From a virus, in IMG/VR virus record IMGVR_UViG_3300046530_000163, positions 1 through 20,185 of that record: a stretch of DNA of 20,185 nucleotides; one strand, given 5' to 3'. The position numbers were made by a program, and so were the translations under genes. The notes under the pieces are model-generated. The model was not told where the DNA came from. It was given only the letters and a program-made list of their open reading frames with translations, and did not search any database. Below, piece after piece: positions 8,920-13,845 of the stretch; the stretch's first letter is position 1; each line of letters opens with the position of its first letter.

Positions 8920-9360
8920 ATGATGATGGCCCTCGGCATGTTCGTGTTCAGCCTCAGAACCGCCGCCTACCAGGAGCTGCAACGCCAAACTGATTGGCGC
9001 CATGCCAGCAACAACCGCATCGGCGCTGCACCCGCACGTCAATTCGTCGGGCGTGGCGACGACGCCATCACCCTCCCCGGCATCATCTTCCCCGAGCTGG
9101 CCGGCAGCGCCCTCAGCCTCGACGCCATACGCCTGATGGCGAACACCGGCAAGGCGTGGCCCATGGTCGAGGGCACCGGTCGCATTTACGGCCTCTGGGT
9201 GATCGAGAGCCTGAGCGAGACCAAGACCCTCTTTTTCAGCGACGGCACCCCACGGCGCATTGAATTCACCCTGAGCCTCAAACGCACCGACGACGACCGT
9301 ATTGACCTGCTCGGCGCCGGTACCAGCGTCGGCCTCAACATCCTGCGAGGCCTGTTTTGA
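8920..9360 (+). CDS. U: Tail completion protein gpU
   Basis: The 146-residue protein is a clear P2 gpU homologue: MMMALGMFVFSLRTAAYQELQRQTDWRHASNNRIG and the later DDAITLPGIIFPELAGSALSLD. gpU is a tail protein needed to finish a stable contractile tail. Three tandem ATGs (8920, 8923, 8926) are possible starts; the first fits P2 gpU, which also opens with repeated Met. It starts 5 bases after the tape-measure stop, and its TGA overlaps the TTG start of D. Confidence 0.94.
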   Translation: MMMALGMFVFSLRTAAYQELQRQTDWRHASNNRIGAAPARQFVGRGDDAITLPGIIFPELAGSALSLDAIRLMANTGKAWPMVEGTGRIYGLWVIESLSETKTLFFSDGTPRRIEFTLSLKRTDDDRIDLLGAGTSVGLNILRGLF

Positions 9361-10610
9361 TCGACTCCATTATTTCCAAGGTCACCGGCTACCTGCGAAA
9401 TACCGCCGAACGCTATGTGCGTGATGCGGCCTACCCGGTGCCGGCGTTCCGTCTTACCGTCGACGGCCTGGACATCGCCCAACTGATCAGCCCGCGGCTG
9501 ATGACCCTGGAGCTGACCGATAACCGCGGCGTCGAGGCCGACCAACTCAGCATTACGCTCAGCGACCATGACGGCCTGCTGTCGATTCCGCCCAAGGGTG
9601 CGGTGCTGCGGTTGTGGCTGGGCTGGAGCGACACCGGCCTGGTGGACAAAGGCACCTACACCGTCGACGAGACCGAACACAGCGGCGCACCGGACGTGCT
9701 CAGCATCCGCGCTCGATCCGCAGACCTGCGCAAAGGCCTCAAAACCAAACGCGAACGCAGCTGGAGCAACACTACCCTCGGCGACGTCCTGGGCGATATC
9801 GCCATTGGCAACGGCCTCACCGCCACCATCGCCGGCGCACTGGACGGTTTACCCATCCTGCAACTCGATCAGGCCAACGAGTCCGACGCCAACCTGATCA
9901 GCCGCCTGGGTGAAGAATTCGACGCGGTGGCCAGCGTCAAAGCCGGTTGCCTGCTGTGCCTGCCAGCGGGCGGCGGCAAGACCGCCAGTGGCATGGACCT
10001 GCCGCACATCGTCCTCACCCGCGAGGACGGCGACCAACACCGCTACCTGCAAGCCGACCGCGACAGCTACGACGGCGTGCGCGCCTATTACTACGACGTG
10101 AACAGCGCCAAGAAACAGGAGGCCATTGCCGGTGGTGGCGACAACCTCAAGGACTTGCGCCATACCTACAGCGATCAGCAGTCAGCCCTGCGCGCCGCCA
10201 GGGCGGAGTTTCGGCGGTTGCAGCGCGGCAGCGCTACGCTCAGTTACAGCCTGGCAATGGGCCGACCGGATCTGATTCCCGAGCTGACGTACACGCTCCA
10301 GGGTGTGAAGGCGGAAATTGACGAGATCATCTGGTACGGCGGGAATGTGCAACACAGCCTGAGTGCGGACGGTGGCTACACGGTCAGCCTGGAGCTGGAG
10401 AGCAAGTTGCCGGAGGACAACGTTGAGGATCTGGCGGAGGAGAACAAGGGGGATTACACGGGGATCATCGCGTACTACCGCGACCAGAAAACCGGGAAGG
10501 AAAAGACCATTACGGCGGGGGATCAGACGAAGCCGAGGCGGTTGCGGTGGTTGTATGCCAGTGAGAAGACGGCCAAACGGGCGGTGGATCGGGAGTGGAA
10601 ACGGTTATAG
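9357..10610 (+). CDS. D: Tail hub/late control protein gpD
   Basis: The 417-residue protein is a P2 gpD-type late control/hub protein (phage_GPD family). The N-terminal domain (PAFRLTVDGLDIAQLISPRLMTLELTDNRGVEADQLSITLSDHDG) and the central LADLRKG-like, LISRLGEEFDAVASVKAGCLLCLPAGGG segments are characteristic. Trimeric gpD links the tail tube to the spike. The start is a TTG overlapping the gpU stop (TTGA). The C-terminal part contains the expected KTITAGDQTKPRRLRWLYASEKTAKRAVDREW. In P2 an ogr gene follows D; here D ends 13 bases before a convergent foreign gene, and the Ogr-like gene is elsewhere. Confidence 0.95.
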   Translation: MIDSIISKVTGYLRNTAERYVRDAAYPVPAFRLTVDGLDIAQLISPRLMTLELTDNRGVEADQLSITLSDHDGLLSIPPKGAVLRLWLGWSDTGLVDKGTYTVDETEHSGAPDVLSIRARSADLRKGLKTKRERSWSNTTLGDVLGDIAIGNGLTATIAGALDGLPILQLDQANESDANLISRLGEEFDAVASVKAGCLLCLPAGGGKTASGMDLPHIVLTREDGDQHRYLQADRDSYDGVRAYYYDVNSAKKQEAIAGGGDNLKDLRHTYSDQQSALRAARAEFRRLQRGSATLSYSLAMGRPDLIPELTYTLQGVKAEIDEIIWYGGNVQHSLSADGGYTVSLELESKLPEDNVEDLAEENKGDYTGIIAYYRDQKTGKEKTITAGDQTKPRRLRWLYASEKTAKRAVDREWKRL

Positions 10611-10623
10611 CCCATCAGTACAT

Positions 10624-11949
10624 TCAGGCTTGAACAGTCCGATATAACAGCTCCTTCAGCCAAAACCATCTATCAAAACCATTCTCAGACAAAACACTAC
10701 GAAGTTTTTCCGCCAGCACAGGAAGAGCATGCTGTTTAAAAAGGGCTAATATATCACCACCCCATAGGCTGAAGAGGGAATACATAACCCCCAATACAAA
10801 CATAGCCGTCGCCAACTTATTAATTATGCTTATCCTTTCTCTCGCCCCACCCAGCAGACTCAAAAGCTTATTCTTAGCTTCTTCCGCACTAACTCTAATT
10901 TCTGCCTCGTCCTTAGCGACCTCTCCCTTAATGACTTCATATCGATAAAGAGACTTTCTAATCTGCCCTTCGAGAGTAGTGAAAGATTCAAAATATATCG
11001 CATTGGTTGTTTTTGTAAGATACATCACAAAGTACAGACCAAAGCAAACCAGGCCTACAGACAAAAAGTCCTGCCCCTTAACTAGCGCAGCGATTGCAAT
11101 TAGTGCGCCGGGTATCGCAAAAGCCTTATTCTGACTAGAGGACACAGACTCATTGATCTTAGAGATATAATCAGAAACCTTCTCTTCAATTTCACTGAGC
11201 AGCTTATTTACAGAAAACCGATGAACATATACATCATAATTTTCTCGAAACTTTTTCTGAAATTTCTTACACTGAGTCACAACCCAATCAAAAGAAGAAT
11301 CACTATGATCCTCATCTAATATATCAGAAAGAGTCGTCCTAAGCACGTCTCTACGTTCCCTGGCATGGGCATCCTTGATTTCAATTAAACCCTTTATCTC
11401 TATCGCAACATCATACGACAACTGACTAAAATCAAGCTGATTCAACTTTGCCAGAGTGAGAGTAGGATTAATTTCGTGCTTTTTGGCTCCCTTTTCAGTA
11501 CTTATGAAGTACACAAATGTTCCAGCAGATGAACTTGTACCTTTATGATCCGAAAGTGCTTTAAAAATGCCTTTCCACAAAAAATAAGTCCTTACTTTGA
11601 AAATAGCACTCGCATCTTCCTGCCAAGATCCTATTTTACCTTCGCATATAAAATAAAAATCTGGCAAAACGTCCTCACCTGATACAACCTCCCAAAAATG
11701 CTTGACACTTAGATATAATGGGCATCTTGTACCCCAGGCATCAGACCCTGTATCCACAACCAGTTGCAACTGCCCGTCAGCCTCCTCCAAGTTCAGAGGC
11801 TTTGTGAACTGCAGTGAAACCAACTCACTATACAAACTATTAAGATGCGTGCGCCCCGCTTCGGTGAGGGGCGCACTGAACAATACATAATGTTCGTCTA
11901 GAGACACATCTGAACATTCCAGCTTATTTATTAAGGCTGTCATCATCAT
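10624..11949 (-). CDS. Cargo gene 2: membrane protein of unknown family
   Basis: I do not recognise the family. From the ATG triplet at 11949-11941 the product has about 441 residues; an upstream in-frame ATG at 11997 lacks an RBS and is judged less likely. Residues 1 to about 270 are soluble and end in a helical, charged region (KKFQKKFRENYDVY...LSEIEEKVSDYISKINES). Two membrane segments follow (AFAIPGALIAIAALV, about 276-290; FLSVGLVCFGLYFVMYL, about 295-311), then a helical stretch of about 65 residues and a third hydrophobic segment (LATAMFVLGVMYSLFSLWGG, about 378-397). No nuclease, ATPase or Toll-type motif is visible. The start overlaps the end of cargo gene 1 by 26 bases, so the two are translationally coupled. 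The DNA is strikingly AT-rich against the flanking phage genes, which indicates recent acquisition. Confidence 0.85.
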   Translation of the reverse strand: MMMTALINKLECSDVSLDEHYVLFSAPLTEAGRTHLNSLYSELVSLQFTKPLNLEEADGQLQLVVDTGSDAWGTRCPLYLSVKHFWEVVSGEDVLPDFYFICEGKIGSWQEDASAIFKVRTYFLWKGIFKALSDHKGTSSSAGTFVYFISTEKGAKKHEINPTLTLAKLNQLDFSQLSYDVAIEIKGLIEIKDAHARERRDVLRTTLSDILDEDHSDSSFDWVVTQCKKFQKKFRENYDVYVHRFSVNKLLSEIEEKVSDYISKINESVSSSQNKAFAIPGALIAIAALVKGQDFLSVGLVCFGLYFVMYLTKTTNAIYFESFTTLEGQIRKSLYRYEVIKGEVAKDEAEIRVSAEEAKNKLLSLLGGARERISIINKLATAMFVLGVMYSLFSLWGGDILALFKQHALPVLAEKLRSVLSENGFDRWFWLKELLYRTVQA

Positions 11950-13075
11950 CTTTTTTGCCAACCTTGGAAAGAATTGCCTCTCTATCATCGTCATCAAGAG
12001 GTATTCTAATATAGCTTAAATCATCATCCAATAACACAGGCTTCCCTGAGCCTGCATACCCTAACGAACTAACTTTAACCTTACAACTAAAATTTCTGCT
12101 CGTATCGGAAATCTCTACCGACTCCCCTTTTACAGCATCCGGAACTGTCGGCTCAAAAATCGAATTTATTGGGTACTTATTAGTATTTACAAAAGTGCAA
12201 AACTTACCCTTCTTCTCATGACTAACCGGCAACTCCTTATCAATTACATGCTGAATCTCATTGAGACCTGTTGGCTTTTTCTGGCTAGCCCGCTGCTTTA
12301 AATGCTCGGTAACTTTCGAGACGATTTTTTCTCGTACGCTACGAGGCAACTTGCACTCCCCGATAAAATCATTGACTGCCCGAAATAAGTTACCAACACT
12401 CTCTTTGTTCGGAGTTGCGTCATTACAGCCTAAAGCCTCCTTAAAAAAATTACTTTTGGATTTACCAGCGATAAAATGCAGATATGGTTCACCATCATTT
12501 TTCGGGTATGTTACAGAAAATAAGTTAAGATCAAAAAGAGCGGCCTGCCGAAGTGCATCAGTATCAATCGGATTTAGTTTTTTTGGTTGCAAGTCACTAT
12601 CAAAATCAAAGCCACCTTTTTTTGAAACCATAACCACGAGAAATCGACCAAGATCGTCACAATCTGCGGACGACTTGTAATGAACCAACACTACATTTCC
12701 TCCCACAAGACTACCACGCTCAAGAGAGTTACCTGCACGCTTCAACCCTTGCATTATTTGTTCGGCCGCCTGAACAAACACTGTACCTTTATCTATATAC
12801 CCCTTTAAATTACCAGGAGTACTACTTGAAGTAGGACTAGCAAAATAGCCATGAAACTTATTTTTCTTTCTAAATTTTTCTTCAATTCTAAAAATAAAAT
12901 CAAGTGCGGTCTGATTATTCAAATTCCAGGACTTGCCCATAACAACCTCAAATGGATTTCCAGTAAAACTGGTATCTCTTTCAAGGCTTGCGGTTATAGC
13001 ATCAACTACAGTCAACACCGCTTCAGCTTTTTGCTTATCGTCACCCTGTGGTGGCAATACCTCAGCAATAGACAT
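11924..13075 (-). CDS. Cargo gene 1: NA37/YejK-like nucleoid-associated protein homologue
   Basis: This 383-residue protein matches the 37-kDa nucleoid-associated protein family (NdpA/YejK, NA37) in its middle part. GGNVVLVHYKSS...FLVVMVSKK (about 125-153), the LNPIDTDALRQAALFDLNLF segment (about 167-186), YLHFIAGKSKSNFFKEALGC (about 198-217) and SVGNLFRAVNDFIGECKLPRSVREKIVSKV (about 226-255) follow the order and spacing of YejK. The family binds DNA on the nucleoid. The N-terminal 100 residues and the Asp-rich C-terminus (DDDDREAILSKVGKKDDDD) are less family-like. The start ATG 13075 has a GGTGA RBS 5 bases upstream and a TATAAT/TATAAA -10 region. It is the first gene of the cassette. Homology was read by eye and is moderately secure; the role in a phage is inference. 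Confidence 0.8.
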   Translation of the reverse strand: MSIAEVLPPQGDDKQKAEAVLTVVDAITASLERDTSFTGNPFEVVMGKSWNLNNQTALDFIFRIEEKFRKKNKFHGYFASPTSSSTPGNLKGYIDKGTVFVQAAEQIMQGLKRAGNSLERGSLVGGNVVLVHYKSSADCDDLGRFLVVMVSKKGGFDFDSDLQPKKLNPIDTDALRQAALFDLNLFSVTYPKNDGEPYLHFIAGKSKSNFFKEALGCNDATPNKESVGNLFRAVNDFIGECKLPRSVREKIVSKVTEHLKQRASQKKPTGLNEIQHVIDKELPVSHEKKGKFCTFVNTNKYPINSIFEPTVPDAVKGESVEISDTSRNFSCKVKVSSLGYAGSGKPVLLDDDLSYIRIPLDDDDREAILSKVGKKDDDDSLNK

Positions 13076-13087
13076 TTACATCACCAT

Positions 13088-13100
13088 ATTATAATTTATA
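13088..13100 (-). promoter_or_regulatory. Putative promoter -10 region of the cargo cassette
   Basis: On the minus strand there are overlapping -10-like hexamers TATAAA (complement of 13095-13100) and TATAAT (complement of 13088-13093), shortly upstream of cargo gene 1. No good -35 is seen at 17 bases; only a weak TTAA-type element is present further up. The placement suggests the cassette has its own transcription start, independent of phage late expression. Confidence 0.45.
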
Positions 13101-13183
13101 GGAAAGCTAACGGACGATTAACTTTTCGAACAGGGAACAACGACTACTGGTAGCTAAAGAGCGACCACTAGAAAAATATGAAA

Positions 13184-13241
13184 ATAGGGATGGAGCAGAA
13201 CAAAGCGCTTGAATTGGCTTCAACATTGATCACATCCCTAT
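13184..13241 (-). terminator. Possible terminator/structured element downstream of the repressor gene
   Basis: ATAGGGATG (13184-13192) and CATCCCTAT (13233-13241) are exact 9-base inverted repeats. Read on the minus strand, the distal arm is followed by a T-rich run (TTTTCATATTTTTC), as expected of a terminator for the repressor transcript. The 40-base interior is long but contains a smaller hairpin, TTGAA-GCCAA-TTCAA. It also shields the cassette promoter from read-through. Confidence 0.4.
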
Positions 13242-13266
13242 GTGGTTTGAGGCGCCTTAATCAGCA

Positions 13267-13301
13267 CACCCGATATCCCTGTAGTCGGGTTCAATCGGGT
13301 G
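13267..13301. repeat. Inverted repeat in the repressor-cargo gap
   Basis: CACCCGAT (13267-13274) and ATCGGGTG (13294-13301) are a perfect 8-base inverted repeat around a 19-base spacer. It is the middle one of three inverted repeats in this gap. Confidence 0.6.
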
Positions 13302-13330
13302 GATCAGCGGCTTCCCTGTCTAACTGATCC
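13301..13330. repeat. Inverted repeat just downstream of the repressor stop
   Basis: GGATCAG (13301-13307) and CTGATCC (13324-13330) form a perfect 7-base inverted repeat with a 16-base spacer, abutting the neighbouring repeat at 13267-13301 by a shared base. It lies 18 bases past the repressor stop codon on the minus strand. Confidence 0.55.
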
Positions 13331-13348
13331 GTTCTTAATGGGTACAGA

Positions 13349-13786
13349 CTATGCTGGCCGTTTGGTATCGGCAAGGGCTTCAGTCAAATCCTTGAGGCGC
13401 TGCTCGACATCCATTAAGCGTTTCTTTTCTTCAGCAGCGCTCTGTATCTCCCGCTTACCGGCCTCTCCAAGCGAGCGGAACAGCTCAAGAATGGCCTCCT
13501 CCTGCTGATTCTTTGTTTGCGCTTCCGACGAGGCCGCCGAAACACCCAGACACATAGAGCCTTCCCCCGTCAGCAGCCAATCCAGACTTATACCCAAATG
13601 AGTGCGAATGGCTGCCATAGCCTTCGCATTGGGCTCACGTTCACCCAGAAGGTAGTTCTGAAGCGTCCTGTACGGAATCCCCACTACTTCTGAGGCCTCC
13701 TTTATAGACATACCTCTGTCGTCGATTACGCTGCGCAGGCGAGCGGCTATACTCATTTTTTCATGAATTCCAATTGACGCACTCAT
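13349..13786 (-). CDS. Xre-family (CI/C-type) prophage repressor
   Basis: The protein has an Xre-type helix-turn-helix near its N-terminus: MSIAARLRSVIDDRGMSIKEASEVVGIPYRTLQNYLLGEREPNAKAMAAIRTHLGISLDWLLTGEG. A short charged helical tail (about 65 residues, EEAILELFRSLGEAGKREIQSAAEEKKRLMDVEQRL) may allow oligomerisation. It lacks the Ser/Lys LexA-type peptidase domain of lambda CI, so direct RecA-stimulated self-cleavage is not expected. Starts at 13786 (145 residues) and 13756 (135 residues) are both possible; the former would give a near-leaderless mRNA from the minus-strand TATACG at about 13795-13800, the latter has a GGAA 11 bases upstream. It is divergent from the Cro-like gene across a shared promoter/operator. 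The likely role is keeping the early operon off in the lysogen. Confidence 0.87.
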   Translation of the reverse strand: MSASIGIHEKMSIAARLRSVIDDRGMSIKEASEVVGIPYRTLQNYLLGEREPNAKAMAAIRTHLGISLDWLLTGEGSMCLGVSAASSEAQTKNQQEEAILELFRSLGEAGKREIQSAAEEKKRLMDVEQRLKDLTEALADTKRPA

Positions 13787-13801
13787 TTTGGTGCGTATAC
13801 T
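13774..13801 (+). promoter_or_regulatory. Rightward early promoter with overlapping operator
   Basis: TTGACG (13774-13779) and TATACT (13796-13801) are separated by 16 bases, a good sigma-70 promoter directed at the Cro-like gene. Overlapping it, ACGCAC (13777-13782) and GTGCGT (13791-13796) form a 6-base inverted repeat with an 8-base spacer, a likely operator for the repressor, the Cro-like protein or both. GTATAC at 13795-13800 is self-complementary and could also serve as a -10 for the repressor on the other strand. Confidence 0.65.
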
Positions 13802-13845
13802 GCGAACAAACAGGTACATCTTAACCAACTAGGAACACTCGAACC

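Follow-up and report, generated by a model that had tools for sequence, protein, structure and literature searches.

Two overlapping minus-strand genes in the stretch of DNA analysed here, a 20,185-base virus record (the window) holding part of a Pseudomonas-type P2-like phage, very probably form a DS-1 defence system, and the most likely reading is that they are lysogenic cargo at a hotspot between gpD and the repressor gene of a P2-like prophage. The defence assignment of this member is a prediction by family membership. Gene 1 passes the curated cut-off (330) of NF053868 (DS1_1_antiphage) with 429.9 bits (E 7e-129), and gene 2 narrowly passes that (315) of NF053869 (DS1_2_antiphage) with 327.6 bits (E 9e-98). 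The DS-1 layout is also found: the genes are adjacent (overlapping ORFs) and on the same strand, with the NA37 gene first. The RefSeq names of the E. coli pair are 'nucleoid-associated anti-phage protein' and 'anti-phage protein'.

DS-1 (DefensePredictor-discovered system 1) is an anti-phage system published in April 2026 (PMC13092281). According to the portions of that article available to us, predicted systems were cloned with their native promoters and challenged in plaque assays with 24 E. coli phages, lower phage plating was demonstrated for the E. coli systems of the screen, and the YejK domain appears in its list of domains newly validated in defence; the text on DS-1 in these portions reports no mechanism. 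We equate the DS-1 of that article with this pair because of the NCBIfam model names and the domain list (YejK) in those same portions. An earlier reading of the letters alone (the sequence-only reading) had proposed an undescribed candidate defence system and stated that no system of this composition was known. Its defence part is upheld by the curated DS-1 cut-offs, the strict pairing and the hotspot, but the claim of novelty falls, as DS-1 has the same composition of an NA37 protein and a membrane protein. PADLOC returned no family at E ≤ 1 for either gene, and the INPHARED phage collection contained no gene 2 homologue and, for gene 1, only distant YejK proteins.

The gene pair and its predicted proteins

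Besides tail genes, the window contains gpD, the repressor, a CII-like activator and a primase (these four confirmed by PHROG matches). Its nearest relatives in the phage collection are Dobby, Sirocco and D14A of P. aeruginosa, with ~77% DNA identity over one third of the tail region. The pair (Table 1) occupies the gpD-repressor interval, window 10,611–13,348. The GC content is 0.397 for gene 1 (GC3 0.34) and 0.410 for gene 2 (GC3 0.40); the flanking tail and primase genes have GC 0.57–0.63 and GC3 0.65–0.83. ORF calls, base composition and PHROG matches thus agree with the sequence-only reading, which had described two overlapping, AT-rich minus-strand genes between gpD and the repressor. 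The ORF of gene 2 has 457 codons when counted from a TTG; its true start is likely the ATG at 11,949, 11,946 or 11,943, because homologues begin near residues 17–19, and the overlap with gene 1 would then be 20–26 nt. The sequence-only reading had given the cassette its own -10 region. A TATAAT is present shortly 5' of the gene 1 start, but this -10 region was not borne out: a consensus promoter scan gave no promoter-like minus-strand site 5' of gene 1 and the sites in the region were no commoner than in shuffles. No minus-strand terminator-like site was found between 13,349 and 13,076 (repressor to gene 1), and transcription of the pair in the lysogen by read-through from the repressor is possible.

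Table 1. Positions of the gene pair, its flanking genes and related pairs (window coordinates unless a locus is named)
Feature	Position	Strand	Evidence or remark
gpD, late tail protein	9357..10610	+	PHROG 52, E 8e-154; bounds the cargo site on the other side, convergent with the gene pair
Gene 2 (DS-1B-like), predicted cytoplasmic alpha/beta N-domain, long stalk helix and three TM segments	10624..11997	-	NCBIfam, PHROG 5023, AlphaFold2
TM3 of gene 2 (residues ~395-413)	10759..10815	-	hydropathy; model helix 363-412
TM2 of gene 2 (residues ~311-333)	10999..11067	-	hydropathy; model helix 311-354
Conservation maximum of gene 2 (25 codons, residues 280-304, KINESVSSSQNKAFAIPGALIAIAA), at the end of the stalk helix and TM1	11086..11160	-	conservation
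Gene 1 (DS-1A-like), 383 aa, NA37/YejK-fold nucleoid-associated protein	11924..13075	-	Pfam, NCBIfam, fold match
Phage repressor (C)	13349..13828	-	PHROG transcriptional repressor, E 1e-15; upstream of the pair on its strand
Divergent NA37 + three-TM pairs at the gpD-repressor site	L115:4937-7181, L129:4480-6721, L154:8265-10624, L171:8291-10532

Gene 1 matches Pfam NA37 (PF04245) with E 9e-25 (88.2 bits, cut-off 24.6), and its AlphaFold2 model (pLDDT 82) matches E. coli YejK (9be2) with a Foldseek E of 2e-15 and a VIA Z of 21.7 over 316 residues at 17% identity, so the YejK/NA37 pattern recognised in the sequence-only reading is confirmed. On the YejK equivalog model gene 1 reaches 68.7 bits (cut-off 341). 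The N-terminus of gene 1 has no CxxC pair, and hence it lacks the CxxC...CxxC zinc ribbon of E. coli DS-1A. This ribbon is found in 17 of 22 representative gene 1 homologues and is missing from those of the window, L002, L009, L014, L015, L069 and L098; it is not needed for passing the DS1_1 cut-off. Judged by sequence, the window's branch of gene 1 (L002, L009, L014, L015 and L069) and L098 fall outside the zinc-ribbon subtype of DS-1. Rows for CENP-N/CENP-L (VIA Z 4–5) could connect NA37 with RexA as remote structural relatives; we keep this as a lead only.

For gene 2, no Pfam family was found above its cut-off, and its model matched no solved structure by Foldseek at E ≤ 0.001, nor did the PDB profile search give a significant match. 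The AlphaFold2 model (pLDDT 80, pTM 0.59) predicts an alpha/beta N-domain, followed by a helix of ~63 residues that runs into TM1 and by two helices carrying TM2 and TM3. Hydropathy places the hydrophobic segments at residues ~288–306, ~310–333 and ~395–413, and together with the model it bears out the earlier description of a soluble N-terminal part plus three hydrophobic segments. The case that gene 2 is a housekeeping transporter or structural protein, named in the sequence-only reading as one that would refute the proposal, was rejected: no Pfam family was above cut-off, and the equivalog match is to DS1_2. A CorA/MRS2-type channel or an alpha-pore toxin, suggested by VIA rows at Z 9–11, was considered but not adopted (the best helical matches, Z 9–12, are in the chance range for long helices, and there was no significant Foldseek match). 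Window 11,614–11,982 (residues 6–128 of gene 2), with a predicted helix-strand-strand-helix-strand-strand-helix order, weakly resembles LAGLIDADG/WhiA folds; with VIA Z of 5–6.5, within noise, we do not assign such a domain.

The most conserved part of gene 2 is the entry of the stalk into the membrane. The top-scoring window of the protein is residues 280–304 (mean 3.68 bits), in which K280, I281, Q289, K291, A292, P296 and G297 are invariant among 22 homologues; by part, the means are 1.90 bits for the N-domain, 3.20 for the stalk, 3.65 for TM1 and 0.72 for the C-tail. A conserved motif at the membrane entry suggests that the membrane part does the work, and with the stalk end and TM1 as the most conserved parts, a membrane effector fits better than a passive anchor.

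Pairing, carriers and the cargo site

Using a profile search with gene 2, we found 64 loci (57 in IMG/VR, 2 in species genomes and 5 on plasmids). In 62 of them gene 1 is the immediate upstream neighbour, in the same orientation, and both exceptions (L013 and L018) are at a contig edge and start inside gene 2. The reverse survey gave gene 2 beside gene 1 in 36 of 37 gene 1 loci, the exception (L092) being a contig that ends before gene 2. The pair, as the sequence-only reading had suggested checking, does recur elsewhere. In E. coli, the pair occurs in near-identical form in 105 of 5,426 genomes, and each of these matches spans 80% or more of both genes together. The mirror-tree correlation of gene 1 and gene 2 is 0.94, which shows co-inheritance rather than contact. 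The linear 2.7 kb P. aeruginosa record pLINPALO6 (L009), possibly a piece of an assembly, has a gene 1 homologue at 373–1557 (41% identity) and no gene 2.

P2-like carriers of the pair are the window and L002. In lambdoid-type carriers the pair is found beside antiterminator Q or lysis genes, and L069 is an inovirus-like element with a secretin, Rep_trans and an integrase. The survey for defence genes nearby, also suggested earlier, was positive as well: L098 has a defence-type neighbourhood (NACHT-type ATPase, Mrr-type nuclease and PADLOC candidate PDC-S67), and other defence-like cargo occurs at the gpD-repressor hotspot. Broken frames in gene 1 or gene 2 were seen in L026, L035, L050, L060, L061, L062, L063, L068 and L184, which suggests turnover or loss of the system in several prophages; in L026, L035 and L050, gene 1 is disrupted and gene 2 is intact.

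For the hotspot comparison we used 80 IMG/VR phages (L100–L179) with gpD at least 89% identical, in 71 of which the next conserved gene could be located. From gpD to Cox/CII, the interval in these 71 phages spans 1.0 to 4.0 kb at 41–54% GC and encodes 50 protein clusters, which makes the place between gpD and the repressor a hotspot for cargo in ~70 related P2-like phages of Pseudomonas. A comparable hotspot is found in E. coli P2-like phages at another place, near cos (PMC9122126). Part of the cargo is of a known or candidate defence type, such as PDC-S42 and the PDC-S20-like ATPases, which form a cluster of 13; many of the clusters have no family match. In L103, L111 and L116, gpD is followed by a C5-methyltransferase and two minus-strand genes, one of them PD-Lambda-5_A/ParB-like, possibly a modification-linked defence cassette. 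Unrecognised gene sets at the site include those of L102 (181+367 aa), L145 (200+318 aa), L149 (213+299 aa) and L142/L152/L158 (209+132+365 aa).

Four phages (L115, L129, L154 and L171) carry divergent pairs at the same site and on the same strand as in the window, again with an NA37 gene upstream of a three-TM gene. They score 71–88 bits on DS1_1 (cut-off 330) and 58–99 bits on DS1_2 (cut-off 315), and none of the libraries searched has a name for them. The K-I...Q...P membrane-entry motif of DS-1 gene 2 is retained in most members, and their gene 1 is nearer to ordinary YejK. Further relatives away from the gpD-repressor site (L181–L184) retain the pair, with broken frames in L184. We regard the four pairs as candidate sister systems, and since they lie far below the cut-offs yet share layout and motif, there appears to be a wider superfamily with DS-1 as one of its branches. 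It is possible, though we lean slightly against it, that in this unnamed superfamily of prophage defence pairs NA37/YejK proteins came to serve as the DNA-side trigger of a membrane effector with three helices, a recruitment separate from that of the RdgC-like RexA, and that several diverged branches exchange at one P2-phage cargo site.

Possible modes of action

The mode of action we favour is a RexAB-like abortive mechanism, although, given the DS-1 identity, we judge the chances for and against it to be about equal. By this analogy, the NA37 protein (gene 1) would sit on DNA and recognise some feature of the infecting phage genome or its replication complexes; it would contact the cytoplasmic half and the stalk of gene 2, the contact would open or rearrange the membrane helices of gene 2, and damage to the inner membrane would abort the infection. 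A DNA-associated sensor signalling to a membrane effector is plausible. What the analysis establishes is family identity, strict pairing, operon order, the membrane segments, the NA37 fold and the conservation peak at the membrane entry of the stalk; DNA sensing, contact between the two proteins, membrane damage and the abortive outcome are what we infer. In the best analogue, a RexAB-type pair from a prophage of P. putida, the soluble partner binds DNA and activates the membrane partner, and when triggered the pair damages the membrane and makes cells leaky (PMC12894663). DNA binding by gene 1 is an assumption, against which it counts that NdpA2, related to gene 1, gave no DNA shift on its own (PMC8565334). 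A relation of gene 2 to RexB was not detectable, and the lack of a significant Foldseek match (E ≤ 0.001) of gene 2 to a solved pore protein also counts against the RexAB-like reading.

Unlikely, in our view, is a Kiwa-like mode in which gene 2 is the membrane sensor of injection and keeps the NA37 protein at the membrane, and the NA37 protein coats or clamps incoming phage DNA and blocks its transcription or replication while the membrane stays undamaged. The layout of a membrane protein with a DNA-associated protein is common to both, the large cytoplasmic N-domain and long stalk predicted for gene 2 would suit a scaffold, the NA37 core residues of gene 1 are also highly conserved, and KwaB binds DNA without cutting it (PMC12904381). 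However, conservation in gene 2 is highest at the membrane entry and not in the cytoplasmic N-domain that would hold the partner, and neither protein gave a PADLOC model match or a Kiwa chain in the PDB-sequence profile searches, in line with the sequence-only reading, in which the pair was not recognisable as Kiwa.

It seems improbable that the pair is mainly regulatory, with the NA37 protein acting on H-NS/MvaT-type silencing or on nucleoid topology, gene 2 localising or regulating it, and the anti-phage effect secondary. H-NS-type silencers bind AT-rich DNA, and the cassette is DNA of this type. Moreover, NdpA2, a YejK-family protein of a Pseudomonas mobile element, controls genes together with MvaT (PMC8565334). 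Such counter-silencing would leave the obligate membrane partner unexplained, and the curated families to which both proteins are assigned are anti-phage families, derived from a screen with plaque-assay validation. We give similarly little credence to a toxin-antitoxin-like arrangement, in which gene 2 is a membrane toxin restrained by gene 1 and freed by phage infection or host shut-off. The tight operon with its short overlap, the strict pairing in fixed order and the conserved membrane module would fit it, but the soluble partner in the P. putida RexAB-type pair activates rather than restrains (PMC12894663), and three loci keep gene 2 intact with gene 1 disrupted; if sequencing errors do not account for them, these loci argue against free toxicity of gene 2 in the absence of gene 1.

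Comparison with known systems

For comparative work on DS-1, the window member forms a natural set with the diverged sister pairs found at one phage site and with the conserved motif at the membrane entry. This set separates variable parts (zinc ribbon, N-domain and C-tail) from constant ones (stalk end and TM1) and can thus guide the choice of the first mutants. If the RexAB-like reading is true, a family of housekeeping nucleoid proteins would have acquired the role of infection trigger, as a second solution reached independently of the one in lambda.

With E. coli YejK/NdpA, gene 1 has in common the NA37 fold across nearly the whole protein; it travels with gene 2, whereas YejK is a chromosomal housekeeping protein. 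Kiwa (KwaA-KwaB) also consists of two genes, for a membrane protein and a DNA-associated protein (PMC12904381), but no sequence relation to the window pair was found in the Pfam, PADLOC and PDB profile searches. Lambda RexAB and P. putida PP_5643-5644 resemble the window pair as prophage-borne combinations of a soluble DNA-associated protein with an inner-membrane protein. They differ in that RexA has an RdgC-like fold (and domain homology with the yeast IML3 and CHL4 subunits; PMC11077077) and gene 1 the NA37 fold, and in that RexB and RexBpp have four predicted TM helices and gene 2 three TM segments. RexA is absent from the listed fold matches of gene 1 (Foldseek and VIA), and no Pfam or PADLOC match at E ≤ 1 pointed to Rex, although it is uncertain whether these libraries include Rex models. 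The comparison with RexAB is an analogy of function and layout, not a membership.

DS-1 is the known system to which the window pair corresponds: both proteins are over the curated cut-offs, and gene order, strand and prophage location are alike. The window pair differs from E. coli DS-1 in sequence (identity ~40% for gene 1 and ~29% for gene 2), in its carrier (P2-like, lambdoid-type for E. coli DS-1), in having no N-terminal zinc ribbon and in the longer C-terminal tail of gene 2. DS-1 itself is already named and published; what we add to it is a member from a Pseudomonas P2-like phage whose gene 1 has no zinc ribbon, the cargo hotspot between gpD and the repressor, and the sister pairs of divergent sequence.
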